Source: Microbulbifer pacificus (GTDB taxonomy: Bacteria; Pseudomonadota; Gammaproteobacteria; Pseudomonadales; Cellvibrionaceae). Taken from it: DNA of 64,000 nucleotides. The stretch's first letter is position 1; the number at the start of each line of letters is the position of its first letter. The notes under the pieces are model-generated. The model saw only the letters and a program-made list of their open reading frames with translations, did no database searches and was not told the DNA's origin. The position numbers and the translations under genes are program-made. The stretch covers positions 2,100,001 to 2,164,000 of the forward strand of contig NZ_CP137555.1 of assembly GCF_033723955.1 (NCBI RefSeq), given 5' to 3'. Positions 8,590 to 25,352 of this stretch are shown here, one piece after another.

Positions 8590-8604
8590 TTAACTTTCTC
8601 CAAT

Positions 8605-9264
8605 TTAATTGTTTTGTACCAGGTGCTGGCTGGTCGGGCGGGTTACGCGGAATTTGGCTCCGAGTTCTTCCACCAGCAACACCTTGTCTCCCTGTGAAAA
8701 TGTCTCTCCCGCGTCCGGCTCCACCATCACATAGTGCGTGGTGCCGAACTGGTCGCTGAAGCGCGCCTCTGCCGGTGAGCCTGCGGCGGCCTGGCCGATG
8801 GTGATCACCGCCACCCGGCCGATAAACGATTGCCGGCTCACCGCTTCCGTTTCATCGCCCACGGCGAATTTGCGCAGCAGATTGCCGACAAAGCGCACCT
8901 GCGGCAGCGCGAGCAGCAATACCGGGATGGCCAGCAGCCAGCCTGGCAGCAGCTTGCCGAACAGAGATTCCACGAACATCTGGATCAGCAGGCCTGTCAC
9001 CCCGAAGCCAACCAGAAAAGCCACCAGCAGGATCAGTGCGGGCACTTCGCCGAAACGCAACCAACCCAGCAGTTTGGTGAGTACACCACCGGCCTCGGTT
9101 TCTGGCCCGTCGAGGTCCACATCCACCTCGGGCAGCAGATTGTCGAGCATGTCGGAAATACCGACGCCGATCAGTGTCATCACGCCTTCGAGTACGGCAA
9201 TCATCAACATCAGCACCAGCGCGCCGGTGAACAACTGATTGCCGTCTTGCAGCAGGAACGCCAT
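8605..9264 (-). CDS. yqiJ: YqiJ-like membrane protein with C-terminal OB fold
   Basis: This 219-residue protein has several N-terminal membrane helices (near 12-38, 70-95 and 100-125). A soluble C-terminal domain (about 145-219) resembles the NfeD/OB fold found beside flotillins (AVITIGQAAAGSPAEARFSDQFGTTHYVMV region). NfeD-like proteins typically partner flotillins, which matches its place just before yqiK. Its start overlaps the pspA stop as ATGA at 9262-9266, indicating translational coupling. Confidence 0.85.
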   Translation of the reverse strand: MAFLLQDGNQLFTGALVLMLMIAVLEGVMTLIGVGISDMLDNLLPEVDVDLDGPETEAGGVLTKLLGWLRFGEVPALILLVAFLVGFGVTGLLIQMFVESLFGKLLPGWLLAIPVLLLALPQVRFVGNLLRKFAVGDETEAVSRQSFIGRVAVITIGQAAAGSPAEARFSDQFGTTHYVMVEPDAGETFSQGDKVLLVEELGAKFRVTRPTSQHLVQNN

Positions 9265-9932
9265 CAGGCCTCCGTCTGGGTTTTGATTTTCGCCAGACGC
9301 TCCTTGATGCGATTGGAGCGCGCCAGTTCTTCCAGTTCGGCCAGTTTGCTGGCATCGGCGCTGGACTCGGATGTGGGCAGGCCCGCATTTTCCAGTACGC
9401 GATTGAAGGCGCCGGATGCCTGCTCCACCTTGTCGGAAGTCGCGCGACTACTGCCGCTCTGATCGCTGGTGGTGCCGTTGCTCACGTGCTCGCTGGCCTT
9501 GATGAAATCGCGCAGCTGCTCGCGCATATCGCGCTTCTTGCCCTGCAGTGCACTGATGTACGAATTCAGCTCGGCAATTTCGCGGTCGGTTTCCGCAAGC
9601 GCTTTTTCCAGCACAGGAATCTGCGCCTCGATGTCCATCTGCTTGGCAATCGCCGCTTCCGCCAGGTCATCGCGGCCCTGCTGCACGGCTACCTCAATCT
9701 GCTCACTCAACGCGCTGTGACGGGCATTTTCGTCATTGAGGGTTTTGCTGCTCAGGTATTTTGCTGCTTCCGCCTTGCCGAGCTGGTCGCGCACATCGGC
9801 GATGGCGTCATCGATTTCGCGGATGGCCTGCTCCATGATGAGTTGCGGGGTGGCATTTTCCACCGAGTCCACCACGGCATTGGCGGATGCGGAAATAATG
9901 CGGGAAATACGCTTGATCAATCCTTCTTTCAT
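9264..9932 (-). CDS. PspA/IM30 family membrane-stress protein
   Basis: The 222-residue protein begins with an amphipathic helix (LIKRISRIISASANAVVDS) followed by the long coiled-coil hairpin of PspA/Vipp1 proteins (about residues 25-145). The C-terminal part is Ser/Thr-rich and then charged. The family coats and stabilises damaged inner membrane. It is translationally coupled to the YqiJ gene, so PspA, YqiJ and flotillin probably act together. The ATG at 9932 has a GGAAGG-type site upstream. Confidence 0.88.
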   Translation of the reverse strand: MKEGLIKRISRIISASANAVVDSVENATPQLIMEQAIREIDDAIADVRDQLGKAEAAKYLSSKTLNDENARHSALSEQIEVAVQQGRDDLAEAAIAKQMDIEAQIPVLEKALAETDREIAELNSYISALQGKKRDMREQLRDFIKASEHVSNGTTSDQSGSSRATSDKVEQASGAFNRVLENAGLPTSESSADASKLAELEELARSNRIKERLAKIKTQTEA

Positions 9933-9990
9933 TTTTTTCCTTCCTCTCGTTGTTAGCGAATTTTTCCTGATTTGATAATTTCTGATGGCG

Positions 9991-10446
9991 TCAGCGCTGC
10001 AGCATATCCGTCAGTCGCTGCCGGATTTTTTCCGCTGCCTGCGCTTCAATCAGGCGCGGTTCACTTTGCAGCGCGATCAGCACTATTTTTTCCATAAACG
10101 CCTCCGCTGCTGGCAGCGCCTTGCGCTCGAGTGCAGGACCGATCAACTCTTCATCGGCGCACACCTGGATTGCGGCGGCACCTTCGGTGACGAAATCCAG
10201 CAGCGCTTCCACCAGCAGGCTGCGCTGGTTTTCATCGCTGTATCTGGCTTTTACCGGCAGCATGGTTTCGCCGGCGGCGAGATAAGCGCGGGCGAAACCC
10301 TCCACACCCACGGATTCACGGGCCATGGCAATGAGTTCGCGAACCTTTTCACTCTGGGTGACGGCACCGTTGCGGTCGATGGACATGAGGTAGGCGTAAT
10401 CATCCGCGGAAAGGCGCGCCGATATGGACTGTGTCTTGTTGAGCAT
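9991..10446 (-). CDS. Unknown protein with ribbon-helix-helix-like N-terminus
   Basis: I do not recognise a named family. The first 45 residues (KTQSISARLSADDYAYLMSI followed by a short linker and a helix with TQSEKVRELI) look like the strand-helix-helix of MetJ/Arc-type DNA-binding proteins. The remaining hundred residues are predicted all-alpha. The start at ATG 10446 is preferred over an upstream in-frame one because AGGG lies just before it. It is the first gene of the PspA/YqiJ/YqiK operon (58-bp gap to pspA), and a near-perfect palindrome lies 20-37 bp upstream. It could therefore be the operon's own repressor, which is inference. Confidence 0.7.
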   Translation of the reverse strand: MLNKTQSISARLSADDYAYLMSIDRNGAVTQSEKVRELIAMARESVGVEGFARAYLAAGETMLPVKARYSDENQRSLLVEALLDFVTEGAAAIQVCADEELIGPALERKALPAAEAFMEKIVLIALQSEPRLIEAQAAEKIRQRLTDMLQR

Positions 10447-10465
10447 GGCAATCCCTGACTTGCGA

Positions 10466-10483
10466 TGTATACAAAAGTACACA
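10466..10483. promoter_or_regulatory. Palindromic operator candidate TGTATAC-AAAA-GTACACA
   Basis: The arms TGTATAC (10466-10472) and GTACACA (10477-10483) are complementary at six of seven positions around AAAA. The site lies directly before the ribbon-helix-helix-like gene, where an autoregulatory operator would be expected. Confidence 0.45.
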
Positions 10484-10863
10484 CGCTTTCTACGAGCCGT
10501 CAATTACAAACGCTTGCACCACCACAAATAGCACCGCAGCGGTAAATGAAAGTCACAAACGCATGCTTAAGCGGCGTTTTTACTCACCTAAAACGGACAA
10601 GCGACCGCGAAAATCACCTGTGAGCAGCGCCCAATTCCCGTGCGTTTGCCGCAGCGCGCGCCGCCGCGGTGCGCAACATCCCCTGTTCCCACAGCTCGGC
10701 TCCACCAGCCCTCCACTCAACGACTTGCCGCTTTACAAATGGGCGCAGGCGCGATTTGCTCTCAGGTTCATCCGCTGTGATCCAGCGGGCAAGACAATAA
10801 GCTATCGCCCGCCAGTACCCGGTTCCAACGCGGGGAAAACATCCGGGCGTCCCGGGGAGGACA
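10484..10863. other. Non-coding gap before the tld operon
   Basis: About 380 bp carry no convincing gene. A 140-codon frame through 10563-10985 has arginine-rich, low-quality composition and runs into the first tldD in another frame. The stretch must hold the divergent promoters of the PspA-type operon and of the tldD operon. The only clear element near the right end is a GGGGAGG ribosome-binding site just before 10864. Confidence 0.6.
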
Positions 10864-12495
10864 ATGAAGAGAAGAAATTTCCTCAAGATCGCCGGTGTCG
10901 GAACCAGCGGCATACTGCTGCCGGTCTATGGCGCACAGGTTTCCGCGGCCCAGCTCGCGGGAAACGCGATCGATGTCGGCCATAAGAAAACACTCGCCGA
11001 TGTTGCTCTGAATACCGCCCGCAAGGCCGGCGCCACCTACACCGATGTACGCATTGGCCGCTACCTGAATCAATTCGTGCTCACCCGCGAGACCAATGTC
11101 GAAAATATCGTCAACACGGAATCGTTGGGCGCCGGCATCCGTGTCATTGCCAACGGTACCTGGGGCTTTGCCGCAACCAACGACCTGAGCGCGGACGGCA
11201 TCGCCAGGGCGGCGCGTCAGGCAGTGGCCGTGGCCAGGGCCAACTCGAAATACCAGACCGAACCGGTGCAGCTGGCTCCCGTAAAAGGTGTTGGCGAGGT
11301 TTCCTGGCAGACGCCGATTCAGAAAAATGCGATTGACGTGCCCATCAGCGAGAAAGTCGACTTCCTGATGGAAGTCAACAACGGCGCACTGAAGGCCGGC
11401 GCCAGCTTCATCAACTCGTCTCTCTATCTGGTGAACGAACAGAAGTACTTCGCCTCTTCCGATGGCTCCTACATTGACCAGGATATACACCGTCTGTGGG
11501 CACCGATGCAGGTGACGGTGGTCGACAAGGACAGTGGCGTGTTCAAAACCCGCAACGGTCTGAGTGATCCAGTCGGACGCGGTTACGAGTATCTGGAGGG
11601 CCGCGAGGAAGACAAGATCCACGGCCAGACCACGCTGTACAAAAACTCCTACGACATGGCGGAGGACGCCGTGCTCGCCGCCGAGCAGGCCCGTGCCAAG
11701 CTCACCGCCAAATCCATTGAACCCGGCAAGTACGATCTGGTACTCGAGCCCTCCCACCTGATGCTGACCATCCACGAGTCCGTGGGCCACCCGCTGGAAC
11801 TCGACCGCGTGCTCGGCTACGAGGCGAACTATGCGGGCACGTCATTTGCAACGCTGGATAAGTGGCGCAGTGGCAAATTCAACTACGGCAGCGACAAGGT
11901 GAACTTGTTTGCCGACAAGGTTCAGCCGGGCTCCCTCGGGGCCGTCGGTTACGACGACGAGGGTGTGAAAACCAAGCGCTGGGATCTGGTCAAGGACGGC
12001 GTCCTGGTGAACTACCAGGCCACCCGCGACCAGGTGCACATGATCGACCAGAAGGAATCCCACGGTTGCTGCTATGCCGATAGCTGGTCAAGCGTGCAGT
12101 TCCAGCGCATGGCGAACGTGTCCCTGGCCCCCGGCGAAGAAAAATACAGCGCAAAAGAAATGATCAAGGATGTAGAAAAAGGTATCTACATTCTCGGTCG
12201 CGGTTCCTATTCCATCGACCAGCAGCGCTACAACTTCCAGTTCGGCGGCCAGCTGTTCTATGAGATCAAGGACGGGGAGATCGTTGGCCAGGTGGAAGAT
12301 GTCGCCTATCAGTCCAACACGCAAGAGTTCTGGAATTCCTGTAGTGCCATCTGCGACAGCAGCGATTACCGCCTCGGCGGCACCTTCTTTGATGGCAAGG
12401 GGCAACCGAGCCAGGTGAGCGCCGTATCCCACGGCTGTTCCACCACACGGTTCGACAAAATCAATGTAATCAACACCAAGCGCAAGATCGGCTAA
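10864..12495 (+). CDS. Tat-exported TldD-family metalloprotease, copy 1
   Basis: The 543-residue protein starts with a twin-arginine signal (KRRNFLKIAG, then a hydrophobic stretch and a VSA-AQ cleavage-like site). The TldD zinc motif HExxxH is at His304-Glu305-His309 (TIHESVGHPLELDRV). E. coli TldD also uses a cysteine in a CGK-type loop; the matching place here reads FFDGKGQPSQ with Asp510, while a Cys lies at 525 (VSHGCSTTRF). TldD normally works in the cytoplasm with TldE on peptides such as microcin B17 precursors or CcdA. The Tat signal suggests an envelope location. It is first in a nine-gene co-directional run, followed 32 bp later by tldE. The GGGGAGG site is just upstream. Confidence 0.88.
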   Translation: MKRRNFLKIAGVGTSGILLPVYGAQVSAAQLAGNAIDVGHKKTLADVALNTARKAGATYTDVRIGRYLNQFVLTRETNVENIVNTESLGAGIRVIANGTWGFAATNDLSADGIARAARQAVAVARANSKYQTEPVQLAPVKGVGEVSWQTPIQKNAIDVPISEKVDFLMEVNNGALKAGASFINSSLYLVNEQKYFASSDGSYIDQDIHRLWAPMQVTVVDKDSGVFKTRNGLSDPVGRGYEYLEGREEDKIHGQTTLYKNSYDMAEDAVLAAEQARAKLTAKSIEPGKYDLVLEPSHLMLTIHESVGHPLELDRVLGYEANYAGTSFATLDKWRSGKFNYGSDKVNLFADKVQPGSLGAVGYDDEGVKTKRWDLVKDGVLVNYQATRDQVHMIDQKESHGCCYADSWSSVQFQRMANVSLAPGEEKYSAKEMIKDVEKGIYILGRGSYSIDQQRYNFQFGGQLFYEIKDGEIVGQVEDVAYQSNTQEFWNSCSAICDSSDYRLGGTFFDGKGQPSQVSAVSHGCSTTRFDKINVINTKRKIG

Positions 12496-12527
12496 GCGAA
12501 CAACAATAAATTTTTGGAGCAGAAAAA

Positions 12528-13859
12528 ATGGCTATTTTATCCAGAAGTGAAGCCAAGCAGATTCTCGACAAGGTCCTGAAATACAGCAAGGCGGAAGGTG
12601 CGAGCGCACAACTTACCGGCGCCGAGACCGGCAATATTCGCTATGCGCGCAATAGTGTTTCCACCAGCGGCATCGTCAACGATATCGAACTGGCGGTGGA
12701 AGCGCGTTTCGGCAAAAAATCCGGCATCGCCACCATCAACGAATTCAGTGATGCGTCACTGGAAAAAGTCATGCGCCGCGCAGAAGAGCTGGCGAAACTT
12801 TCGCCTGACAACCCCGAGTCCATGCCGCTGCTGGGTGAGCAGAAATATCTCGCGGTAGACGGCTTCTCCAAGGTGACCGCCAATATTACTCCCGATCAGC
12901 GCGCCAAGGCGGCGGCCGACTCCATTATGGCGGCGAAGAAAAAAGACGTGGTGGCTGCAGGCTACCTGGAAGATGCGCGCTCCTTCGCCGCGGTGGCCAA
13001 CACCAATGGCCTGTTCGGTTACCACGCGTCCACTTCCGCCAATTTCACCGTCACCATGCGCACCGAAAATGGCCTGGGTTCCGGCTGGGCGCAGGCCGAC
13101 GTGACCGATTTCGGCAACATGAATACCGCCTCCAGCTCCGGTATCGCCATCGACAAGGCCGTGCTTTCCCAGGAAGCACGCGCACTGGAGCCCGGCAAGT
13201 ACACCGTGATCATGGAGCCGAGCGCCGTGTCTGGCCTGGTGGCGTTTATGATGGGCAGTCTCGATGCGCGCAGCGCCGACGAAGGCCGCAGCTTCCTCAG
13301 CAAGAAAGGCGGCGGCAACCGCATCGGCGAGAAGATGTTCGACAAGCGCGTGCACCTGTACTCCGACCCGTCAAACACCGATGTACCGGTACAGCCCTGG
13401 TCCGATGACGACTACATGGCGCTCGAGCGTATCGACTGGGTAAAAGACGGCGTGGTGAAAAACCTGCCCTGTACCCGCTACTGGGCGACCCAGTCCAAGG
13501 GCACCGCCATTCCCGCGCCCAACAACCTGATCATGGTTGGCGGCGACAAGTCCACCGAAGAACTGATCAAGAATACCCGTCGCGGCGTGCTGGTAACCCG
13601 CACATGGTATATCCGCATGGTGGATCCGCAATCCCTGCTGCTGACCGGCCTGACCCGCGACGGAACCTTCTTTATCGAGAACGGCAAGATCAAGTACCCA
13701 ATCAAGAACTTCCGCTTCAACGAGAGCCCGGTGATCATGCTCAACAATATTGAAGACATGGGGCGCCCGGAGCGCGTGAGCATGTGGGGTGGCCCGGCGA
13801 TGATTCCCGCACTGAAAGTGCGCGACTTCACCTTCAGCAGCCTGTCTGACGCCGTTTAA
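12528..13859 (+). CDS. TldE/PmbA-family protein without signal peptide
   Basis: The 443-residue protein has the PmbA/TldE fold: an N-terminal domain with RYARNSVSTSG, then a C-terminal half with EPGKYTVIMEPSAVSGLVAF where TldD has HExxxH, so no metal site is expected. TldE is the non-catalytic partner of TldD. The N-terminus (MAILSRSEAKQILDKVL) has no signal sequence, although both flanking TldD proteins carry Tat signals. Export as a folded complex with TldD is one explanation; the other is that TldE stays in the cytoplasm. GGAG lies ten bases before the ATG at 12528. Confidence 0.88.
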   Translation: MAILSRSEAKQILDKVLKYSKAEGASAQLTGAETGNIRYARNSVSTSGIVNDIELAVEARFGKKSGIATINEFSDASLEKVMRRAEELAKLSPDNPESMPLLGEQKYLAVDGFSKVTANITPDQRAKAAADSIMAAKKKDVVAAGYLEDARSFAAVANTNGLFGYHASTSANFTVTMRTENGLGSGWAQADVTDFGNMNTASSSGIAIDKAVLSQEARALEPGKYTVIMEPSAVSGLVAFMMGSLDARSADEGRSFLSKKGGGNRIGEKMFDKRVHLYSDPSNTDVPVQPWSDDDYMALERIDWVKDGVVKNLPCTRYWATQSKGTAIPAPNNLIMVGGDKSTEELIKNTRRGVLVTRTWYIRMVDPQSLLLTGLTRDGTFFIENGKIKYPIKNFRFNESPVIMLNNIEDMGRPERVSMWGGPAMIPALKVRDFTFSSLSDAV

Positions 13860-13888
13860 TTTACTGCAGCACTAATGAGGATCGAATA

Positions 13889-15520
13889 ATGGATCGTAGA
13901 AAGTTTCTGCAGTTGAGCGGCGCCGGTATCGGTGCCTCTATGCTGCCCCTCTCCGGCAACGTGATTGCCGAAAGCAAGCTGACCCAGAGCGGTATGGATG
14001 TCGCGGTGAAAAAAGAGCTGGCGGATGCCGCTCTGAATACCGCCACCAAGCTCGGTGCGTCCTATGCGGATGTGCGTATTGGTCGCTACCTGAACCAGTA
14101 TGTGGTCACCCGCGAGATGAAAGTACAGAACGTGGTGAACACCGAATCCATCGGTATGGGTGTGCGTGTGATCGCCAACGGCACCTGGGGTTTCTCCGCG
14201 ACCAATGACATGACCAGCGATGGTATCGCCCGCGCTACCGCGCAGGCCGTTGCCACCGCCAAGGCCAACTCCAAGTACCAGCAGGAGCCGGTGCAGCTGG
14301 CGCCGGTGAAAGGCCACGGCGAAGTCAGCTGGAAAACACCGATTCAGAAAAATGCCATGCAGATCCCGCTGGCGGAAAAAGTGGATCTGCTGATGGAGGT
14401 GAACAAGGCCGCACTGGATGCCGGTGCCAGCTTCGTCAATTCCATGCTGTATCTGGTGAACGAGCAGAAATATTTTGCCTCCACCGATGGCTCCTACATC
14501 GACCAGGACGTACACCGCCTGTGGTCCCCGTTCCGGGTTACCGCAGTGGACAAGAAAGACGGCGGTTTCCGTACCCGCGAGGGCCTGGGTATGCCGGTGG
14601 GCCGCGGCTTTGAATATCTGGATGGTCGCGCCGAGGACAAGGTGCAGTCACAGACCGTGCTGTACGGCAACTCCTACGATATGGTGGAAGACGCGCGCCT
14701 GGCGGCCGAGCAGGCCCAGGAAAAGCTCTCTGCGAAGTCGGTCACACCCGGCAAATATGATCTGGTGCTGGACCCATCGCACCTGTGGCTCACGATCCAC
14801 GAATCCGTCGGCCACCCGCTGGAACTCGACCGCGTACTCGGTTACGAAGCCAACTTTGCCGGTACTTCCTTTGCCACCATCGACAAGTGGAAAAGTGGCA
14901 AATTCAAATACGGCAGCGACAAGGTCAACCTGTTTGCCGACAAGGTACAGGAAGGCTCGCTCGGCGCCGTCGGCTACGATGACGAAGGCGTACAGACCGG
15001 CAGTTGGGACCTGGTAAAAAACGGTGTGCTCACCAACTACCAGGCAATCCGCGACCAGGTACATATGCTCGACCAGAAGGCGTCGCACGGCTGTTGCTAT
15101 GCGGACAGCTGGTCCAGCGTGCAGTTCCAGCGCATGGCCAACGTCTCGCTGCTGCCGGGCGAGGAAGAACTGAGCCTCGACGACATGATCAAGGATGTGG
15201 AAAAAGGCATCTATATCGTGGGCGACGGCTCCTTCTCCATCGACCAGCAGCGCTACAACTTCCAGTTCGGCGGCCAGCTGTTCTACGAAATCGAGAACGG
15301 TAAAATCACCGGCATGCTGGAAGACGTCGCCTACCAGTCCAACACACAGGAGTTCTGGAATTCCTGTTCGCAGATCTGTGACAAGCGCGACTACCGCCTG
15401 GGCGGCTCCTTCTTCGACGGCAAGGGCCAGCCGTCGCAGGTGAGTGCCGTTTCCCACGGCAGTGCCACCACGCGCTTTGACGGTGTGAATGTGATCAACA
15501 CCAAGCGCAAGCTCGGCTAA
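13889..15520 (+). CDS. Tat-exported TldD-family metalloprotease, copy 2
   Basis: This is a paralogue of the gene at 10864: the same 543-residue length, no gaps by eye and roughly three-quarters identity. It has a twin-arginine signal (MDRRKFLQLSGAG) and keeps HExxxH at 304-309. Asp510 is again in the loop where E. coli TldD has its zinc cysteine. Unlike copy 1, residue 525 is Ser (VSHGSATTRF) rather than Cys. It lies 29 bp after tldE. Two TldD copies around one TldE suggest alternative heterodimers with different substrates, or a duplication in progress of functional split. The ATG follows a GAGGATCGAATA leader. Confidence 0.88.
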   Translation: MDRRKFLQLSGAGIGASMLPLSGNVIAESKLTQSGMDVAVKKELADAALNTATKLGASYADVRIGRYLNQYVVTREMKVQNVVNTESIGMGVRVIANGTWGFSATNDMTSDGIARATAQAVATAKANSKYQQEPVQLAPVKGHGEVSWKTPIQKNAMQIPLAEKVDLLMEVNKAALDAGASFVNSMLYLVNEQKYFASTDGSYIDQDVHRLWSPFRVTAVDKKDGGFRTREGLGMPVGRGFEYLDGRAEDKVQSQTVLYGNSYDMVEDARLAAEQAQEKLSAKSVTPGKYDLVLDPSHLWLTIHESVGHPLELDRVLGYEANFAGTSFATIDKWKSGKFKYGSDKVNLFADKVQEGSLGAVGYDDEGVQTGSWDLVKNGVLTNYQAIRDQVHMLDQKASHGCCYADSWSSVQFQRMANVSLLPGEEELSLDDMIKDVEKGIYIVGDGSFSIDQQRYNFQFGGQLFYEIENGKITGMLEDVAYQSNTQEFWNSCSQICDKRDYRLGGSFFDGKGQPSQVSAVSHGSATTRFDGVNVINTKRKLG

Positions 15521-15615
15521 TCGTCGCCCCTGCAGTCGCCATGTCGTTACCGGCACGGCGATTGCTGGCGTTGGCAAATCAAAACCGCCCCTTAAGAAGT
15601 TTCAGAGCAGTACCC

Positions 15616-16329
15616 GTGTCACTCACCCGCAAACAATTTCTCCAGCGCCTGTTGCTGGCCGGTGGCGGCCTCGCATTGCCGGGTGCCGTGCGCGCGCAGA
15701 GTGACACAACACCGGCCTACGATTTTTATTTCACTCGCCTGATGTATGAATCCGGCGACTGGGATGTGGACCAGCGCATGCCATCGAATGTGCTGAACTC
15801 CCTGATCGAATACACCAACCTCAACGTCGACCCCAATGAACGCATCGTGCCCCTCGCCGATGCTTCCATGTTGCTGGCCCCTTTCTGCTACCTGGCCGGA
15901 CACAAGCTGGTGGAATTTACCGCGGCAGAGGAAAAAAATTTTCGCGATTACGTGAACCGTGGCGGTTTCGTGTTCGTGGACGACTGCAATCACGATATCG
16001 ACGGCCTGTTTGCCAAATCCTTTGAAGCGCAGATGACGAAACTGTTCGGCGAGGGCTGCCTGCAGAAGCTGCCGGACGACCACGATCTGTATCGCTGCTT
16101 TTTCCAGTTTGACGAATTGCCAGTGACCAGTTTCGAGCTGAACGGCTGGGGTGATGACCTGGTGCACGATTACCTCAAGGCCATCGTGGTCAATGGCCGT
16201 ATCGCCGTGCTCTACAGCAACAAGGATTTCGGCTGCGAGTGGGACTACGACTACCGCAACAAGCGCTGGCTGGCCATCGACAACACCAAGTTCGCCGTCA
16301 ACATTGTTATCTACGCACTTACAAGTTGA
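15616..16329 (+). CDS. DUF4159-domain exported protein
   Basis: The mature part (from DTTPAYDFYFTRLMYESGDW) matches DUF4159, a glutamine-amidotransferase-like fold of unknown activity, with features such as FVNRGGF-like YVNRGGFVFVDDCNHDI. The N-terminus SLTRKQFLQRLLLAGGGLAL resembles a Tat signal but has Arg-Lys instead of Arg-Arg. The GTG at 15616 places this signal at the very N-terminus; an ATG at 15541 in frame would bury it behind 25 residues and lacks a ribosome-binding site. DUF4159 genes usually accompany MoxR, DUF58 and BatA genes, as here. The protein starts about 95 bp after the second tldD. Confidence 0.8.
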   Translation: MSLTRKQFLQRLLLAGGGLALPGAVRAQSDTTPAYDFYFTRLMYESGDWDVDQRMPSNVLNSLIEYTNLNVDPNERIVPLADASMLLAPFCYLAGHKLVEFTAAEEKNFRDYVNRGGFVFVDDCNHDIDGLFAKSFEAQMTKLFGEGCLQKLPDDHDLYRCFFQFDELPVTSFELNGWGDDLVHDYLKAIVVNGRIAVLYSNKDFGCEWDYDYRNKRWLAIDNTKFAVNIVIYALTS

Positions 16330-16335
16330 ATCACC

Positions 16336-17337
16336 ATGTACACAGTAGACACCATTGAGAACCGAATCGAAGAGCAGCAGCGCGCGCTGGAAACACTGCG
16401 CGGGGAAATCGGCAAGGTCATTGTCGGCCAGCAGGATGTGGTGGAGCAGATGCTGGTGTGCCTGCTGGCGCGCGGCCACGTATTGCTGGAGGGCGTACCG
16501 GGCCTCGGCAAAACGCTGCTGGTGAAGATCCTGGCGGACGCATCGAGCCTGGCGTTCAAGCGAGTGCAGTTCACCCCGGACCTGATGCCGGGAGACATTC
16601 TCGGCAGCGAGATCCTCGAAGAAGACCACACCACCGGCAAACGCTTTTTCAAATTCCAGCCCGGCCCGATTTTCACCAACATTCTGCTGGCGGACGAAAT
16701 TAACCGCACACCGCCGAAAACCCAGGCCGCACTGCTGGAATCGATGCAGGAGTATTCCGTCACGGTTGCCGGCGAAACCATGGCCCTGCCGAAACCCTAC
16801 TTCGTGCTGGCAACCCAGAACCCCATCGAACAGGCGGGCACCTATCCACTGCCGGAAGCGCAGCTGGACCGCTTCCTGCTGAATATCCATATTGACTATC
16901 CGGATGAACAGGACGAGGTCGCCATCCTGCGTGCGACCACCGGGGCCTTCGGGGAAAAGCCGTCGCCCTGTCTCGACGCCACGCAACTGCTGGAAATGCA
17001 GGCGCTGGTGCGCGAGGTCTCCGTCAGCGACAGCCTGTATGAGTATGTGGCGCAACTGGTGCGCGCCACGCGCGCTCAGAACCGGGAAGACAACCTCGGC
17101 AAATGGATCAAGTGGGGCGCCGGCCCCCGCGCCGGGCAGGCGCTGATTCTCGCCGCCAAGGCGCGCGCCTTCCTGCACCGCCGCCTCGCCGTTACCCGCG
17201 CGGATATCCAGGCGCTGCTGCTGCCGGTACTGCGCCACCGCATCCTGCTGAGCTTCCACGCCCAGGCCGACGGCATCACCGTGCAGCAGGTGCTGCAGGA
17301 GTTGCTGAAGACCGTGCCGGAACCCGGTAGGGACTGA
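16336..17337 (+). CDS. MoxR-family AAA+ ATPase
   Basis: The 333-residue protein has Walker A GVPGLGKT (about residue 55), Walker B ILLADEINR (about 117), sensor 1 in LATQNPIEQ and the C-terminal lid with LLPVLRHRILLSF. MoxR ATPases act as chaperones for the maturation of metal- or cofactor-containing enzymes and work with VWA-domain proteins. Its gene begins six bases after the DUF4159 stop and precedes a DUF58/VWA gene, the standard MoxR arrangement. The protein it remodels may be one of the TldD/TldE or DUF4159 products, which is inference. Confidence 0.95.
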   Translation: MYTVDTIENRIEEQQRALETLRGEIGKVIVGQQDVVEQMLVCLLARGHVLLEGVPGLGKTLLVKILADASSLAFKRVQFTPDLMPGDILGSEILEEDHTTGKRFFKFQPGPIFTNILLADEINRTPPKTQAALLESMQEYSVTVAGETMALPKPYFVLATQNPIEQAGTYPLPEAQLDRFLLNIHIDYPDEQDEVAILRATTGAFGEKPSPCLDATQLLEMQALVREVSVSDSLYEYVAQLVRATRAQNREDNLGKWIKWGAGPRAGQALILAAKARAFLHRRLAVTRADIQALLLPVLRHRILLSFHAQADGITVQQVLQELLKTVPEPGRD

Positions 17338-17351
17338 CGGAGTAGTAGTCG

Positions 17352-18272
17352 GTGCAATTGATTGATCCGCTGACGCTGGCGAGTACCCGCGACCTGGTGT
17401 GGCTTTCGCGGCACATTGCCGAGGGCATGCTGCTGGGCATGCAACACAGCCAGCGCCGCGGTGCCGGTATCGAGTTCCAGCAGTACCGCAGTTACGAGCC
17501 CGGCGATGCCATCCGGTACATAGACTGGAAGCTGTTTGCGCGCTCCGACCGCTATTTTGTGCGCGAGGCGGAACAGGAGAGTCAGATGCATGTGTGCATC
17601 GTGCTCGATACCAGCGCGTCGATGGCGCAACCGAGCTTCATCGAGCCGCAACTCACCAAGTTGCAGTACGCGAAATGCTGGATTGCGACGCTGTGCTGGC
17701 TGCTGAAAAACCAAAACGACCGCTTTTCCCTGCTGGCACTGAACGATCGCGGCAACCGGCATGTGCCCGAGGGCCAGGGCGAAGGCCACCACCGACGCAT
17801 TGCGCTGGAACTGGAATCCCTCGAGGCCGCCGGCCACTGGCCGGACAGCACGCAACTGGCACCGGTGTGGGCGCGATTTGAACAGCCCTGCCAGGTGGTG
17901 CTGGTGAGCGACTTCTTCGAGCGCGATGCAAACGGGAATGGGAACGGAGAAGCCACCGGGGAACTCAGCCGCTTTGCCGCGCGCCTGCACGCTGCCGGCA
18001 GACCCTGCCTGCCAATGCAGATACTGGTGGAGGCAGAACAGACATTCCCGTTCCATGGCGACCTCCGAATCCGCGATCCGGAAGCGCCCGGTATTACCGA
18101 GCTTGGGGCATCACAACAGCGCAACGAATACCTCGCCGCCTTTGCCTCGGCACAGAGACAGCTCGCCGCGCACTTTGCCGCGCGCGAGTGTCCGCTGATT
18201 ACCACCACGGTGGAAACCCCCATAGAGCAGTCGCTGCGCGCATTCATCGGCGCACACGGGAGGATCGGTTGA
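17352..18272 (+). CDS. DUF58 / VWA-like protein
   Basis: The 306-residue soluble protein carries the DUF58 signature (FQQYRSYEPGDAIRYIDWKL) and a VWA-like fold with a MIDAS pattern DTSASM near residue 86. Proteins of this type are the obligate neighbours of MoxR ATPases and are thought to link the ATPase to its client. The GTG start at 17352 has GGAG at 17339-17342. It is followed with one base of spacing by the BatA-like gene. Confidence 0.92.
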   Translation: MQLIDPLTLASTRDLVWLSRHIAEGMLLGMQHSQRRGAGIEFQQYRSYEPGDAIRYIDWKLFARSDRYFVREAEQESQMHVCIVLDTSASMAQPSFIEPQLTKLQYAKCWIATLCWLLKNQNDRFSLLALNDRGNRHVPEGQGEGHHRRIALELESLEAAGHWPDSTQLAPVWARFEQPCQVVLVSDFFERDANGNGNGEATGELSRFAARLHAAGRPCLPMQILVEAEQTFPFHGDLRIRDPEAPGITELGASQQRNEYLAAFASAQRQLAAHFAARECPLITTTVETPIEQSLRAFIGAHGRIG

Positions 18273-18273
18273 G

Positions 18274-19449
18274 ATGCCCGTGAGCGAAACCTTGTTGCTG
18301 CAGATTCCCTCCTGGCTGTGGTTGCTGTGCGCCCTCGCCGTGCCACTGCTTATTCATTTGCTGCGCCAAAGCAACCCGCAGGAAATCACCTTTGCGGCCG
18401 TGCACTGGCTGCAGCAGCGGCGCCAGCGCCGCTGGAAGCAGTGGTTTGTACGCGACAAGCTTTTGCTGCTGTTGCGCCTGCTACTGCTCACCCTGCTGGT
18501 TCTCGCGCTGGCGCAGCCACTGTTGCTGCGGAATACACAGCCTTCGGCACAACGGTTATTGGTGGACCCCGAAGTAACCCCGGCGTATCTGCAGCAGTTT
18601 CTCGCCGATCACCCGCAGATTCGTGAGGGCTACTGGTTGCAGCCATCGCCGCAGCCTGTGACCGAGTCGCGCCCTGCCGCCCGTGATCTCTGGCTGACAC
18701 TGTCTCAGCTGGCGGATGCCAGCGAGTTTCGGCGCGCGCATATCCTGCTGGCGCGAGAAAACAATGCCAGCGGCCACGATAGCTTCCGCTACAGCCCGCA
18801 CTGGCAATGGCACGCCGCCAATAGCGGGAATGGTGCGGACACACCAGCGCTGCCGCGTATCGCAGTGCTCGGCGGTGAGCCAGCCTGGCTGCAACCGCTG
18901 ATACAACAACTGGCGGGATCCACACTGCCGCAACTTGTGCTGCAGCGGCTGCCGGCCGATGCAACTCCGGTTGTTGGCGATATCGACTGGCTGATCTACG
19001 ACACACCCGGCCCCTTGCCGCAGCGGATTGCAGAATTCCTGCGCGCGGGCGGGCTGCTGATTTCCGATGCGCGGGTAACCGCGGACAGCACATTCCGTTT
19101 TATCGATATTGATGCGCAAACAGGGCTGGAAACGGCGCCCGTCGGCCGCGGCAGCTGGCTGCGCTACCGGCGCGACTGGCACAGTGCGGCGTTTTCCCAT
19201 GATGCGAATTTGCCGCAACGACTGTGGCAGCAGTGGTCCACCCAGGACTGGCAGTGGCAGCACGCCAGCCGTGGCCGGTGGTCGATGGATGCGCTGCCGG
19301 GAACCGAGCTTGCGGACGAGCAGGTAATACACAGCCAACGCCAGCCTCTGCAACAGGCTCTGATATTTGCCTTTGCGCTGCTGTTGCTGCTGGAGCGCTC
19401 GCTGGCGCTGTGGCGACGTCCCGCGACGACCGGAGGTGATAAACGGTGA
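18274..19449 (+). CDS. BatA-like inner-membrane protein
   Basis: The N-terminus has the BatA (aerotolerance regulator) pattern: a first helix (WLWLLCALAVPLLIHLL), the positively charged RQRRWKQWFVRDK loop, and a second helix (LLLLLRLLLLTLLVLALAQPLLL). A periplasmic region of about 300 residues follows and a final helix is at about 358-380 (QQALIFAFALLLLLERSLAL). The middle part contains a GATase-like segment (DIDWLIYDTPGPLPQRIAEFL). Function is unknown beyond association with MoxR modules. The stop overlaps the next start as GTGA at 19446-19449. Confidence 0.85.
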   Translation: MPVSETLLLQIPSWLWLLCALAVPLLIHLLRQSNPQEITFAAVHWLQQRRQRRWKQWFVRDKLLLLLRLLLLTLLVLALAQPLLLRNTQPSAQRLLVDPEVTPAYLQQFLADHPQIREGYWLQPSPQPVTESRPAARDLWLTLSQLADASEFRRAHILLARENNASGHDSFRYSPHWQWHAANSGNGADTPALPRIAVLGGEPAWLQPLIQQLAGSTLPQLVLQRLPADATPVVGDIDWLIYDTPGPLPQRIAEFLRAGGLLISDARVTADSTFRFIDIDAQTGLETAPVGRGSWLRYRRDWHSAAFSHDANLPQRLWQQWSTQDWQWQHASRGRWSMDALPGTELADEQVIHSQRQPLQQALIFAFALLLLLERSLALWRRPATTGGDKR

Positions 19450-21662
19450 GTAAGCATCATCTTCTCGGGCAAGTTCTCGGACAAGCCGCGCGCCGCTGGC
19501 GCAAGCGCGCGCTGGCGCCCTATGCCTGGCTGGCCCTCGCCGTCGTTGCAGCGATGGCCGCAGCCCACCAATTTTTACCATTGCCACCTTGGGCCATGGC
19601 AGTCGCCGGTGCCTGCGTGGTGCTGGCAGTGCTGCTGGACCGCTGCTGGCGCCTGCCGCCGGCGGCGCTGTGTGCCCGGCTGGATGCGCGCTTTCCGCAG
19701 CTGGAGGATAGCTGCCATCTGCTGCTGGAAAATCCACAATCGCTGACCCCGCTCGCGCAACTGCAACGCCAGCGCACCGAGCGAGCTTTGCAGGCGTTGC
19801 TGGAACAGGGAGAACTCAAACAATTTGGCCCACGCCGTGTACGCAGCCCGTTGCTCAATGCCACCGGTGCCTGTATCGGTCTGCTGGTATTTTTTACCGT
19901 GAAGCAGCTGGGTACAGGCTCCGTTGCACAGGTACAACAGGATGCCATTGTCGACGCGCATGTAACCCAACAATCCACTGCGGCCATAATCGAGGCAAGT
20001 GCCCGCATCGAGCCGCCATCCTATACCGGCCTCCCCGCGTACTTAAGCAATCTGGAAATCGAAGCACCGGAACAATCACGTGTTACCTGGGATGTCACCC
20101 TGAACGCACCCGCCGACCGCTTGCAGATGCTCGCCGCCGAGGAGGTATTTGACTTCACACCGGTTGACTCGCTGCCGAGCAGCCGCTGGCAGCTGACGCG
20201 CGTGCTGTCGGCAACGGATTTCTACCAGCTCTCGCTAGTACCCACCACTGCTGTACCGACCGCCGCGGCCACGGAAACCACGCAACCGGTACTGTTACCG
20301 GATCTGCACAATATCGAGGTCAAGGCGGACCGGCCGCCGGAGTTTTCTTTCGATTACCCGCGGGACAATGTGACCGTGCTCGACGTACAGGGGCGCGCGC
20401 AGTCCGCGCTGCTGCAAGTCAGCGTGGCCGTGCAGGATGATTTTGCGATAACCAAAACAGATCTGCTGCTGACGCTTGCCAGTGGCAGCGGAGAGAATGT
20501 GCGCTTTCGCAATGAGCGCATAAAGCTGGAACCGCAGCGCGCACAGGGCACGCAGAAACACTACCGTTTTTCCATCCCGGTGGAGCGGTATGAAATCGAG
20601 CCCGGCGATGAACTCTACTGGTACCTCGAGGCGCGTGACAATCGCCAGCCGCAGGCAAATGTACAGAAAAGCCAGAACTTTATTTTGCGTTGGCCACAGG
20701 AAGAAATTTTCGGACTCAGTGACACCGAAGGCATGGCGATTAAGGTATTGCCGGAATATTTCCGCAGCCAGCGGCAGCTGATCATCGACACCGAAGCACT
20801 GCTCGCGGACCAGCAGACGATAACCGAGCGGGAATTCCGCAAACGCTCAGAATCACTCGCCTATGAACAAAATTTATTGCGTATGCGCTACGGGCGCTTC
20901 CTCGGTGAAGAGGATTCCACCATGGAGCACGGCGGCGACGCGCAGGGCGAAGATCACGATGGCGAAGAGCACGGCCAAGAGGGACACGGTGATCACCAGG
21001 AAGAACACACTACCAATCAGCAGTTCGGTGACGCCAGCGGTGTGATCGCCGCCGTCGGGCACGCCCACGACAGCTCCGACCACGCCACCCTGTTCGACCC
21101 CAAAACCAAGGAACTGCTGCGCAGTGCACTCAACGCAATGTGGAGTGCATGGCGAGACCTGTCGGTTGTGGAACCGCAGGCCTCCCTGCCCTATCAGCAC
21201 ACAGCGCTGCGTTACATCAAGGAAGTGCAGCAGGCGTCGCGAATTTATCTGCAGCGGGTCGGGTTTGAAATGCCGCCGCTGGACGAATCGCGGCGGCTTT
21301 CCGGTGAGCACGACAAAAAAACACCGCCGCCGGTCGACAGCCAGCGCGACGACGTCGAGCGCGCGCAACTACTCGCCCTGCTGGAACGGGTACAAAATAT
21401 CGAAGCCATCGACGAGCAGGCAGAAGCCGCGCTGCGACAATTGCCGGCCGTGCGCGATGACACCAATACCCAGATCGCACTGGCCAAAAACCTGCGTCGC
21501 TACCAACAGCAACCGGACTGTGTCGATTGTCGCCAACAGCTGTCGGCACTGCTTTACGCCCTGCTGCCATCGCCATCTGCGCGCCCTGCACTGCCCCATG
21601 CAAAGCCAGCGGTCGGCGCATTCAGTGAATGGATGCAAATAAACGCGGAGACGACACCGTGA
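19446..21662 (+). CDS. DUF4175-like membrane protein with histidine-rich segment
   Basis: This 738-residue protein has two N-terminal membrane helices (about 24-70) and a third near 138-155 (LLNATGACIGLLVFFTVKQLG). A large periplasmic part contains beta-sandwich-like domains (PDLHNIEVKADRPPEFSFDYP) and a coiled region near 435-480. Residues about 493-550 form a patch with nine histidines among many Asp and Glu (GEDHDGEEHGQEGHGDHQEE), a possible metal-binding or buffering segment. The domain family (DUF4175) accompanies MoxR/BatA genes. The GTG start overlaps the BatA stop; its own stop overlaps the next start. Confidence 0.78.
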   Translation: MSKHHLLGQVLGQAARRWRKRALAPYAWLALAVVAAMAAAHQFLPLPPWAMAVAGACVVLAVLLDRCWRLPPAALCARLDARFPQLEDSCHLLLENPQSLTPLAQLQRQRTERALQALLEQGELKQFGPRRVRSPLLNATGACIGLLVFFTVKQLGTGSVAQVQQDAIVDAHVTQQSTAAIIEASARIEPPSYTGLPAYLSNLEIEAPEQSRVTWDVTLNAPADRLQMLAAEEVFDFTPVDSLPSSRWQLTRVLSATDFYQLSLVPTTAVPTAAATETTQPVLLPDLHNIEVKADRPPEFSFDYPRDNVTVLDVQGRAQSALLQVSVAVQDDFAITKTDLLLTLASGSGENVRFRNERIKLEPQRAQGTQKHYRFSIPVERYEIEPGDELYWYLEARDNRQPQANVQKSQNFILRWPQEEIFGLSDTEGMAIKVLPEYFRSQRQLIIDTEALLADQQTITEREFRKRSESLAYEQNLLRMRYGRFLGEEDSTMEHGGDAQGEDHDGEEHGQEGHGDHQEEHTTNQQFGDASGVIAAVGHAHDSSDHATLFDPKTKELLRSALNAMWSAWRDLSVVEPQASLPYQHTALRYIKEVQQASRIYLQRVGFEMPPLDESRRLSGEHDKKTPPPVDSQRDDVERAQLLALLERVQNIEAIDEQAEAALRQLPAVRDDTNTQIALAKNLRRYQQQPDCVDCRQQLSALLYALLPSPSARPALPHAKPAVGAFSEWMQINAETTP

Positions 21663-23344
21663 TGTCCTGGTTTCCCCTGATTTGCCTGCTGGGTTTTGCA
21701 ATTTCAACGCCGCTGGTTTTGCGCCAGGGAACTTCCATTCTGCGGCGATTTGGCAAGATCGCACTGCAGGGGGCGATCTGGCTACTGGTGTGGTCGCTGT
21801 TTACACCGCCGGCGCTGCTGCCGGTCGAATCGGAGGCACAGCTCAAAGCCACATCGGCCGCGGATGTTAACCGTCAATTTTCCGCCGCACAGATACAGTC
21901 CGCAGACACCCTGCAGATTCCCGGTGATGGCCTGCTGCGCGATGGTCTGCGAGATCTGCCACCGGTGCGCCTGCAACCCGGGGAGACATCGCCCCAGCCC
22001 GGCTGGCAAGTACAGTGGACGCGGGAAATCAACCTGGGTGAACCGCTGCGGCTACAGGTCGCGCTGGATGACGGACAACAATTACCGGCAAAACTGGTGC
22101 TCGAAGACCCGTTCGGTAGCGACGCGGGTTCTGCGCTGCTCAGTACGGAAAACCGGGAGCTCATACTGCAGGCCTGGCCGAAGCTGGCGGGCAACTGGTT
22201 GTATCGGGTGCGGATCGAAACCGAGGGCAGCCCGGCCCGCATTGAAACGCTACCAGTCACAGTGCGCGATCCACAGAGTCCACACGTGCTGGTGTGGCTT
22301 GCGCGCCCCGGATTTGAATCCGCCGCGCTCGCGCGCTGGTTGCGACAGTCGGGCACACCAACCCAGGTGGTTACACAACTGGCGCCGGAAATACAGCGAA
22401 GCGAAACCTTCAACAACCAGTCGCCGATCAAAAATAATCTTTTGGACAGCGCACATCCTATTGACCTTGTGATTCTCGACAGTCGCCTGTGGTCGCAATT
22501 TACTGCCGCGCAGCGCAAACAACTGGAGAAGCTCGCGACGAATAAATCGCTGTTGTGGCTGGTGGATGACGACAGTTCACCGGCGTTTGTTTCCTATGCC
22601 ACCAGTCGCGGTATGCCGCTGGAAAAATCCGTCGCGAGCGCTGTTGCCTATGCTGAGCCGGCAGCAGACACCGAAATACCTGCCCTGCAGCTGACGGGTT
22701 TGCGACCGGTGCAGGTACACGACGGCGATGCCGCGATTTCTGCCGGCGAGCAGGTGATTTACTGGGCGCGGGTGCAGCCGCAGTCATCCATCGGTTTCGT
22801 TTTCTTCCGCAACAGCTACCGCTGGCAGACCGCGGGAAATGCCCGCGAATTCGCGCAACTGTGGAAGCAGCTGTTCGATCACCAACTGGCGCTAAGGGGT
22901 GAACACACAGGCGTCGCGGTCAGCACGGAGCTGCCGCGCGCCGGTGAACGGATCGGTTTGTGCAGCGAAGGCTTCGCGGAAAATCCGCCGCAGCTGCGCC
23001 GTGCTGCTGAAACGGGAAGCGGGATACAGCAGCCGGTTGCACTGGGTGGCGCGCCCGCCGCTAACAACGAACATGGACGCTGCTACAGTTTCTGGCCGCA
23101 ACAATCCGGCTGGTACCAGCTGGCGGAGTCCGATTTTGGCTTTTACGTGCATGGGATAGATGCCTGGCCAGAGTGGCGCGCGGCGATCGAGCGGCGAGAG
23201 ATACGGCTAATGGCCAGTGCGCGACTGGGCCCGCAGGTTGCGGACGACGGAGCCAGAGCGCCATTGCCGCGCTACTGGATCGCGCTCGCACTGCTGGCGG
23301 CGCTGGTGCTGAGCTGGTGGCGGGAACGCAGTAGCCTGCGCTGA
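21662..23344 (+). CDS. Membrane protein closing the tld/MoxR operon
   Basis: The 560-residue protein has two N-terminal helices (FPLICLLGFAISTPLVL and IALQGAIWLLVWSLFT) and one C-terminal helix (YWIALALLAALVLSWW), so most of it faces the periplasm. The middle contains a Rossmann/GATase1-like segment (PHVLVWLARPGFESAALARWL ... IDLVILDSRLWSQF), as in other MoxR-linked membrane proteins. ATG 21662 overlaps the previous stop (TGATG); GTG 21659 is an alternative, with GGAG at 21647-21650. No named family is recognised with certainty. It is the last gene of the run. Confidence 0.75.
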   Translation: MSWFPLICLLGFAISTPLVLRQGTSILRRFGKIALQGAIWLLVWSLFTPPALLPVESEAQLKATSAADVNRQFSAAQIQSADTLQIPGDGLLRDGLRDLPPVRLQPGETSPQPGWQVQWTREINLGEPLRLQVALDDGQQLPAKLVLEDPFGSDAGSALLSTENRELILQAWPKLAGNWLYRVRIETEGSPARIETLPVTVRDPQSPHVLVWLARPGFESAALARWLRQSGTPTQVVTQLAPEIQRSETFNNQSPIKNNLLDSAHPIDLVILDSRLWSQFTAAQRKQLEKLATNKSLLWLVDDDSSPAFVSYATSRGMPLEKSVASAVAYAEPAADTEIPALQLTGLRPVQVHDGDAAISAGEQVIYWARVQPQSSIGFVFFRNSYRWQTAGNAREFAQLWKQLFDHQLALRGEHTGVAVSTELPRAGERIGLCSEGFAENPPQLRRAAETGSGIQQPVALGGAPAANNEHGRCYSFWPQQSGWYQLAESDFGFYVHGIDAWPEWRAAIERREIRLMASARLGPQVADDGARAPLPRYWIALALLAALVLSWWRERSSLR

Positions 23345-24407: not shown

Positions 24408-24434
24408 TGTTTTATTGATTAACCAGGAGTGCCC

Positions 24435-25316
24435 GTGCGCTATTCCCTGCGCCAGCTTGAGGTCTTCCTCGCCTGCGCCCATCACGAAAATGTGAGCCGC
24501 GCGGCGGAGAGCCTGAACATGTCCCAGTCCGCTGCGTCTACCGCGCTCAAGGAGTTCGAGCAACAGTTCGACCTGCGCCTGTTCGAGCGCACCGGCAAGC
24601 GCCTGCGGCTCAATGAGCTGGGGCGACAACTGTGGCCGCGGGCGGAGGAGTTGCTGGAGCGGGCGCGGGAACTGGAAGCAACGCTACTGGCCCACGGCGA
24701 CCTGGGCCGGTTGAAGATCGGCGCCACCCTCACCATCGGCAACTATCTGGCGGCGGGGATTATGGCCCGCTATATGGAGGAGCAGCCGGGTGCGCGGGTG
24801 GAACTGGAAGTGGCCAACACCTCGGCCATTGCCCAGGGCGTGCTGAACTTCGAGCTGGATCTGGGGCTGATCGAGGGTGAGCTCAACCACCCGGACCTGG
24901 AGATGATTCCCTGGCGGGACGATGAACTGGTGGTGTTCTGCGCGCCGGATCACCCGCTGGCCAGGCGCGCCCGCCTGGACGATGAAGACCTGAAGGCGGC
25001 CACCTGGATCCTGCGGGAGACCGGTTCAGGTACCCGCCAGACCTTCGAGCGCGCGATGGCCGGCTTGCTGCCGGAGCTGAACATCCGCCTCGAACTCCAG
25101 CACACCGAGGCGATCAAGCGTGCGGTGGAGGCTGGTCTCGGTATCAGCTGCCTGTCGCGCGTCTCACTCACCGATGCGTTCAAACGCGGTGCACTGGTAG
25201 AACTGCCGGCGCCGCAGCGGGATTTCCACCGCGAGTTCTACTTCGCCCTGCACCGGCAGAAGTACCGCAGCGCCGGGATTGAGCGCTGGCTGGAACTCTG
25301 CCGGCAGATGGCGTGA
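24435..25316 (+). CDS. finR: LysR-family regulator, FinR-like
   Basis: The protein has an N-terminal winged helix (RYSLRQLEVFLACAHHENVS, then SQSAASTALKEFEQQFDLRLF) and a substrate-binding domain from about residue 90. In Pseudomonas FinR activates the divergent fprA gene upon redox stress, and this pair has the same arrangement. GTG 24435 is chosen because AGGAG at 24425-24429 lies five bases upstream; GTG 24429 would overlap that site. The regulated gene is therefore probably fpr. Confidence 0.85.
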   Translation: MRYSLRQLEVFLACAHHENVSRAAESLNMSQSAASTALKEFEQQFDLRLFERTGKRLRLNELGRQLWPRAEELLERARELEATLLAHGDLGRLKIGATLTIGNYLAAGIMARYMEEQPGARVELEVANTSAIAQGVLNFELDLGLIEGELNHPDLEMIPWRDDELVVFCAPDHPLARRARLDDEDLKAATWILRETGSGTRQTFERAMAGLLPELNIRLELQHTEAIKRAVEAGLGISCLSRVSLTDAFKRGALVELPAPQRDFHREFYFALHRQKYRSAGIERWLELCRQMA

Positions 25317-25352
25317 CCCGCCACTGCGTGAGCCCTCACTGTATGTGACGCT

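Follow-up and report, generated by a model that had tools for sequence, protein, structure and literature searches.

Bat aerotolerance operons have the composition MoxR-DUF58-BatA followed by further genes, and the mxa (mox) cluster (MxaR, MxaS), in which MoxR-type and further genes stand beside an exported metalloenzyme, the periplasmic methanol dehydrogenase, has a role in inserting calcium. For MxaR and MxaS themselves the role is regarded as unresolved in PMC9728263, and NorQD has been reported to power the insertion of metal into nitric oxide reductase (PMC13036017). In the peptidase TldD/TldE (PmbA) of Escherichia coli (structure 5nj5), TldD and not TldE carries HExxxH, and Cys454 of TldD is described as a zinc ligand (PMC5810440). 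Here we describe nine genes of Microbulbifer pacificus that join relatives of TldD and TldE to a MoxR module, at positions 10864-23344 (+ strand) of a 64,000-nucleotide stretch of the complete 4.19 Mb chromosome (NZ_CP137555.1, positions 2,100,001 to 2,164,000; hereafter the window). Our reading, held tentatively as a whole, is that the block encodes a TldD/TldE peptidase exported by twin-arginine translocation (Tat), with TldE hitchhiking, and that a membrane machine of MoxR and von Willebrand factor A (vWA) type would serve it by loading metal or otherwise activating it.

The block proteins share the Pfam domains of E. coli TldD/TldE, match the chains of 5nj5 and have the same distribution of HExxxH, but their TldD carries a Tat signal, Cys454 is not conserved, they score far below the equivalog cut-offs and they are tied to MoxR. 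Like NorQ/NorD, the block combines a MoxR AAA+ protein and a vWA partner with a metalloenzyme; unlike NorQ/NorD, its vWA partner is a small DUF58 protein, three further membrane proteins are present and the client would be an exported protease. Compared by description only, the mxa cluster differs in enzyme, metal and membrane partners. MoxR, DUF58 and the BatA N-terminal domain are shared with Bat operons, but the BatA-like protein here has that domain alone, with no vWA match.

A full-text literature search, covering few subscription papers, gave among its listed matches no description of an exported TldD/TldE and a single description of a TldD-MoxR operon, presented as uncharacterised, in Stenotrophomonas maltophilia (NIPOLPBK_01784-01792). 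Besides two TldD and MoxR, that operon encodes a putative protease, a membrane protein and three hypothetical proteins, and by RNA sequencing some of its genes are down in biofilms of all seven isolates (PMC7688217). From its described gene content this operon is very likely the module reported here; one of our loci (L067; labels beginning with L denote loci and with G genomes) carries the module and a TldE 99% identical to an S. maltophilia TldE. The passages on the operon in PMC7688217 give no Tat signals, conservation or mechanism, and the relevant passages of PMC4287336, PMC7074977 and PMC11508158 link TldD neither to MoxR nor to Tat. The new setting that a first-pass annotation of the window had proposed needs one qualification, since PMC7688217 already mentions a two-TldD/MoxR operon. 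The one paper found to name DUF4159 or DUF4175 concerns a division protein of Acinetobacter for which two helices are predicted (PMC7481262).

Organization of the locus

All nine open reading frames (ORFs) are open and co-directional, as first annotated, and Pfam families match TldD1, TldE, TldD2, DUF4159, MoxR (AAA_3), DUF58 and the BatA N-terminal domain. Gaps of 32, 29, 20, 6, 14 and 1 bases separate the genes up to the BatA-like one. The several 4-base overlaps once noted reduce to one, at the BatA/DUF4175 junction (19446-19449). Genes 8 and 9 share 34 bases, or 1 base if gene 9 begins at its second Met. Gene 8 itself has no Pfam match, PF13779 (DUF4175) included, but 8 of 27 aligned family sequences match PF13779, which makes "DUF4175-like" a fair label. 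Gene 9 matches no Pfam family. The features, with their basis in brackets, are as follows.

10864..12495, +, TldD1, a TldD metallopeptidase predicted to be exported, HExxxH at residues 304-309 (Pfam; GGAGG ribosome-binding-like site just upstream)
10864..10947, +, predicted Tat signal of TldD1 with KRRNFLK and a putative cleavage site at the Ala-x-Ala close to residue 28 (sequence; motif test on relatives)
11773..11790, +, HExxxH zinc-binding motif of TldD1, HESVGH (H304, E305 and H309 in 115/115 exported-clade TldD)
12528..13859, +, TldE, without signal or HExxxH, by homology a catalytically inactive partner (Pfam; signal test)
13889..15520, +, TldD2, paralogue of TldD1 (Pfam; tree)
13889..13969, +, predicted Tat signal of TldD2, DRRKFLQ, cleavage site putative (sequence; motif test on relatives)
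15541..16329, +, DUF4159 protein, glutamine-amidotransferase-like fold (Pfam)
15616..15696, +, signal-like N-terminus of the DUF4159 protein if GTG at 15616 is the start, TRKQFLQ with RK for RR (N-termini of relatives)
16336..17337, +, MoxR-type AAA+ ATPase, no transmembrane helix (Pfam; nearest solved relative 2r44)
17352..18272, +, DUF58/vWA protein with DxSxS, no transmembrane helix (Pfam; alignment)
18274..19449, +, BatA-N membrane protein, three predicted helices, large domain predicted periplasmic (Pfam; topology)
19446..21662, +, DUF4175-like membrane protein, three predicted helices followed by a large, presumably periplasmic domain (topology; DUF4175 matches of relatives; model)
20949..21068, +, residues 502-541 of the DUF4175-like protein, a His-rich stretch with predicted disorder (His count; alignment; model)
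21629..23344, +, last membrane protein, without family match, three predicted helices and a large, presumably periplasmic domain (topology; Pfam)

Export signals on TldD and a signal-less TldE

Both TldD proteins begin with textbook Tat signals (MKRRNFLKIAG... in TldD1, MDRRKFLQLSG... in TldD2) and TldE begins directly on its domain, which bears out the first description of the three. Relatives were collected by searching 84,980 species genomes with a TldE alignment, giving at least 560 confirmed relatives; the best 80, with 8 gammaproteobacterial loci, make a set of 88 loci. A strict Tat test is passed by 107 of 113 TldD from this set, the six failures being one truncated ORF, two RR motifs with Asn after Phe and three RK motifs in Mucilaginibacter. 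Tat motif and h-region together occur in 106 of 115 TldD ORFs, compared with 42 of 1015 other six-frame ORFs (at least 250 residues) in the same loci, so that the Tat prediction first suggested as a check extends to nearly all TldD relatives. We consider export of TldD highly probable. It could be argued that the twin-arginine stretch is non-exporting and that the whole set is cytoplasmic like E. coli TldD/TldE, since export here is read from sequence and RK variants exist; we think this very unlikely, because the strict motif with its h-region (107/113) so far exceeds what other ORFs show in the similar test, and because the canonical TldD examined, where their start is recognisable, show no Tat-like motif close to it. 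Loss of TatC as the cause of the RK motifs in Mucilaginibacter (L152) is ruled out, TatC being present there.

TldE has TldD-like domains without HExxxH, adjoins TldD and does not reach the NCBIfam PmbA equivalog (40.9 against a cut-off of 438). None of 107 TldE, all anchored on the domain, has a signal, and in the nine with an in-frame start at least 12 codons upstream the extension holds neither a Tat motif nor a hydrophobic stretch. A signal on one subunit only is what would be expected of a Tat hitchhiker complex, and hydrogenases and formate dehydrogenases are described examples of Tat hitchhiking (PMC10924467). Because the TldD/TldE heterodimer is known, TldE probably travels with TldD. 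The same signal-less TldE (0/107) could instead mean that TldD is exported alone as a homodimer while TldE remains in the cytoplasm with another role; a Sulfolobus TldD homodimer, reported to be catalytically active, is mentioned in PMC5810440, and an archaeal TldD model outscores the E. coli TldD model on the exported-clade TldD. We regard this as quite improbable, given that TldE adjoins TldD in all 78 of the loci that extend more than 2 kb upstream, that pairs have been duplicated together in many Bacteroidota, that TldE is highly conserved and that E. coli TldD needs TldE. Two side observations concern the pairing: in six Bacteroidota loci (L105, L107, L114, L128, L138, L139) two or three TldE genes and their TldD precede a single MoxR module, and one later locus (L160) has TldE without TldD.

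TldD1 and TldD2 belong to the PmbA/TldD superfamily, with PmbA_TldD domains above the Pfam gathering score, but miss both the E. coli-type NCBIfam equivalog cut-off (69.5 and 81.1 bits against 513) and that of the archaeal model (130.3 and 136.3 bits against 635). HExxxH and the following Glu312 are invariant in all 115 exported-clade TldD. The position of Cys454, the third zinc ligand of E. coli TldD and a Cys in 8 of 8 canonical TldD, aligns with an invariant Lys512; Asp510 would align with it after a shift of two, and Cys497 or His523 could also replace it. H209, C402 and H523 are invariant in this clade and not in the eight canonical sequences, and C497 is kept in 110 of 115. Since Cys454 is not conserved and clade-specific residues are invariant, the metal site of exported-clade TldD seems to differ from the E. 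coli type.

In a midpoint-rooted tree the Microbulbifer TldD1 and TldD2 group together outside all other exported-clade rows, with the TldD2 rows unresolved, as if the paralogy arose by duplication within the genus or just before it. The two TldD of L067 and L068 split separately in the same tree, so that by sequence TldD has been duplicated without TldE at least twice, as would be expected if one TldE serves both TldD. A metagenome-assembled genome labelled Rickettsiales (L089) groups with Bacteroidota in this tree, and its label is probably wrong.

Synteny across phyla

The first-pass annotation had considered that the genes might not be syntenic elsewhere; the block in fact recurs far beyond the window, in Pseudomonadota, Bacteroidota and Acidobacteriota. 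The order TldD-TldE-DUF4159-MoxR-DUF58-BatA-DUF4175-last is read in 35 of the 88 loci. Where more than 5 kb lie downstream (73 loci), DUF4159 is found in 68, MoxR in 68 and DUF58 in 67, and where more than 8.5 kb do (59 loci), TldE, DUF4159, MoxR, DUF58, BatA and DUF4175 are present in 53. Twelve stretches around canonical TldD/PmbA genes gave no match to DUF4159, MoxR, DUF58, BatA or DUF4175 at E 1e-5.

Because the 80 loci had been chosen by TldE score, further samples were taken. TldE at E 1e-60 or better occurs in 14 of 398 Pseudomonadota and 30 of 296 Bacteroidota and, in the Acidobacteriota sample, in 32 of 297 genomes. Of the 30 carriers in Bacteroidota, three were left out and four were already among the 80; 24 loci of 23 genomes were taken (L156 being the same place as L150). 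Ten have the TldD-TldE-DUF4159-MoxR run and one is rearranged; in five, DUF4175, the last gene or both lie upstream of TldD; and eight have TldD and/or TldE only. A later 20 loci were read in eight of the nine Pseudomonadota carriers not yet covered and in 12 of the 30 such carriers in the Acidobacteriota sample. Eight of them hold all parts, seven in Pseudomonadota (three outside the class) and one in the Acidobacteriota sample, and all eight have Tat-type TldD. The split of these 20 follows TldE score, the whole-module eight being the only loci above 650 bits; in Bacteroidota it does not, and several loci above 650 bits lack the run. In six loci of the Acidobacteriota sample (L203, L208-L212) a textbook-Tat TldD stands with TldE and no MoxR module lies within the stretch, so the exported-type pair is wider than the module. 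The MoxR/vWA module is the usual partner of one TldE clade and not of every exported pair, and the tie between pair and module proposed at first survives within that clade and fails as a general rule.

Gain and loss in Microbulbifer

PF01523 and PF19289 each match exactly the three block genes in the M. pacificus genome, which holds no other TldD/TldE; the closest matches to TldD1 and TldE are the proteins themselves and then mostly those of Microbulbifer. A survey of 96 genomes covered genus, family and order. Of 48 Microbulbifer genomes, the present one included, 32 have three matches, one has a fragment and 15 have none; 12 genomes from other genera of the family gave no match; and 11 of 36 from the order have matches, all canonical and high-scoring (at least 195 bits). 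By these counts the module is patchy, and the family sample holds no canonical pair. Three gammaproteobacterial carriers (two of the Stenotrophomonas family) retain the canonical pair as well. In all 23 Bacteroidota carriers examined, matches fall only in the score range of the exported set, with none in the canonical range.

Among the 16 Microbulbifer genomes without the full set, the FAD/NAD oxidoreductase gene is found in all and the PspA gene also in eight. The distance between the two is 13.6 kb here, about 850 bases in G024, G020 and G007 and 2.3 kb in G041, and BLAST of these four sites shows collinear flanks with nothing matching 10.51-23.35 kb between them. The other four of the eight have distances of 4.0, 5.6 or 31.6 kb, or the genes on separate contigs. 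The module is thus cleanly absent from some Microbulbifer genomes and is a unit of gain and loss. Synteny and empty sites together lead us to reject a chance neighbourhood.

The sequence around the module adds several observations. Divergent to it, at 6895-10503 (- strand), lie flotillin, YqiJ-like and PspA/IM30 genes and one ORF without a Pfam match, a set of envelope-stress type, and beside it at 24429-26822 are genes for a LysR regulator and for an RLAN-domain ATP-grasp protein of RimK-like type. Genome G025 has kept just a short C-terminal piece of TldD/PmbA (C304:4955-5188), perhaps the remnant of a lost module. Scans for promoters and terminators gave no excess over shuffles. A reading as a defence system was dropped, PADLOC yielding only weak ATPase matches.

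The MoxR module and its possible action on the pair

MoxR has an AAA_3 domain with Walker A and B residues, and the DxSxS metal site of DUF58 (D86, S88, S90) is kept in at least 95% of 70 sequences. Neither protein has a helix in the window, and the BatA-like, DUF4175-like and last proteins have three predicted helices each and, by hydrophobicity and charge, a large domain predicted outside. At least five His per 40 residues are found in 65 of 66 DUF4175-like ORFs, the exception being one part of an ORF split in half, and the second half has seven; the mean is 7.0 per 40 residues, compared with mean maxima of 1.1-3.3 in other gene groups. At least 95% of 63 DUF4175-like proteins retain H514, H539, H541, E545 and T548, and H539 and H541 are invariant in the 27 aligned. 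In a crude scan the His-rich stretch of these 63 is preceded by three helices in 45, two in 15, one in 2 and four in 1, so that it is mostly predicted to be periplasmic. A structure model (pTM 0.39) places it in a low-confidence, probably disordered loop between long helices; the DUF4175 profile has no match among solved chains.

We lean, by a little, towards action of the MoxR module on the exported pair. The conserved and predicted-periplasmic His-rich stretch suggests metal capture or loading, and is our sole pointer to metal delivery; that metal is the means of action is conceivable and somewhat short of an even prospect. Alternatively, TldD/TldE may be a general periplasmic peptidase for which the MoxR module remodels or feeds protein substrates, as in envelope quality control, with no part for metal. 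TldD/TldE shows little sequence specificity in cutting unfolded peptides (PMC5810440), a chaperone-like character has also been ascribed to MoxR proteins (PMC7688217), and the flotillin, YqiJ and PspA genes adjoin the module in M. pacificus, but this would leave the conserved His-rich stretch unexplained, and the PspA neighbourhood varies even within the genus; we judge it unlikely. A role in peptide maturation, the exported protease removing the leader of a secreted peptide, has precedents in microcin B17, matured by E. coli TldD/TldE (PMC5810440), and in the tie of TldD/TldE to pyrroloquinoline quinone supply in Gluconobacter (PMC8602642). It seems a poor candidate here, as known peptide-modifying enzymes have no match among the genes of the module (no search for small precursor ORFs was made).

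The DUF4159 protein matches PF13709 with 161.7 bits (cut-off 25.9). The near-Tat start first ascribed to it is supported by an alternative GTG start at 15616, which would give MSLTRKQFLQRLLLAGGGLALPGAVRA, resembling its relatives. A signal-like N-terminus is present in 14 of 15 Pseudomonadota loci, all but L200 (eight from the motif scan, seven of them above threshold, and six of seven from the later sample, read by eye), and outside Pseudomonadota in two of 83 (L158 and L164, Bacteroidota); two further non-Pseudomonadota cases were flagged and judged false, the start lying three residues from the domain. Textbook Tat signals occur on DUF4159 in L164, L195, L198 and L213. A restriction of the signal to Gammaproteobacteria was too narrow and was dropped after the wider locus sample. 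Where DUF4159 is signal-less, co-export with TldD/TldE would fit.

In the mechanism we favour, TldD1 and TldD2 would fold in the cytoplasm, each pairing with TldE, and each pair would leave through Tat on the signal of TldD, with TldE as hitchhiker. The closed TldD/TldE shell would then trim unfolded peptides in the periplasm, with DUF4159, of glutamine-amidotransferase-like fold, as a possible accessory subunit. MoxR hexamers would act with the DUF58/vWA protein at the cytoplasmic face, and the BatA-like, DUF4175-like and last-gene membrane proteins would transmit this ATP-driven action to the exported enzyme on the other side of the membrane. The His-rich stretch may capture and load metal, keeping the protease inactive until it is outside. 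This last form, a trans-envelope, ATP-powered activation in which a metal-poor, inactive Tat cargo is switched on outside by a MoxR-vWA motor through a periplasmic His-rich handover, we hold to be rather doubtful.

Several observations weigh against the scheme as a whole or against parts of it. Cofactor-bearing Tat substrates are usually loaded before export, so that loading outside would be unusual (PMC10924467). In Bacteroidota TldD of seven loci (L152, L158, L162, L165, L166, L168, L177) an otherwise conserved Tat motif has RK where RR is expected. TatC was found in 52 of 53 carriers; since 295 of 296 sampled Bacteroidota have it too, its presence is uninformative as a test of export. Low cysteine content of TldE (about 1 Cys in exported-clade TldE, 97 being anchorable, against 4.3 in 13 canonical ones) was abandoned as a sign of export, since 0.23 Cys per 100 residues is close to the values of MoxR (0.31) and DUF58 (0.30). 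DUF4159 is signal-less in 81 of the 83 non-Pseudomonadota loci and in L200. Single TldD, BatA and DUF58 ORFs also reach five or six His per 40 residues, and the crude count of two helices before the His-rich stretch applies to 15 of 63 DUF4175-like proteins. Finally, 12 of the later 20 loci have TldD and TldE only; with exported-type TldD/TldE so common without the module, the module cannot be needed everywhere.

Implications

If TldD and TldE are exported as proposed, they would gain a second compartment, which in M. pacificus, and seemingly in the 23 Bacteroidota carriers examined, would be their sole one, and the function of TldD/TldE would become testable in cells without a cytoplasmic pair. 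The widespread MoxR/DUF58/BatA/DUF4175 cluster would gain a concrete candidate client, and the signal-less TldE of these loci are predicted to be new Tat hitchhikers.

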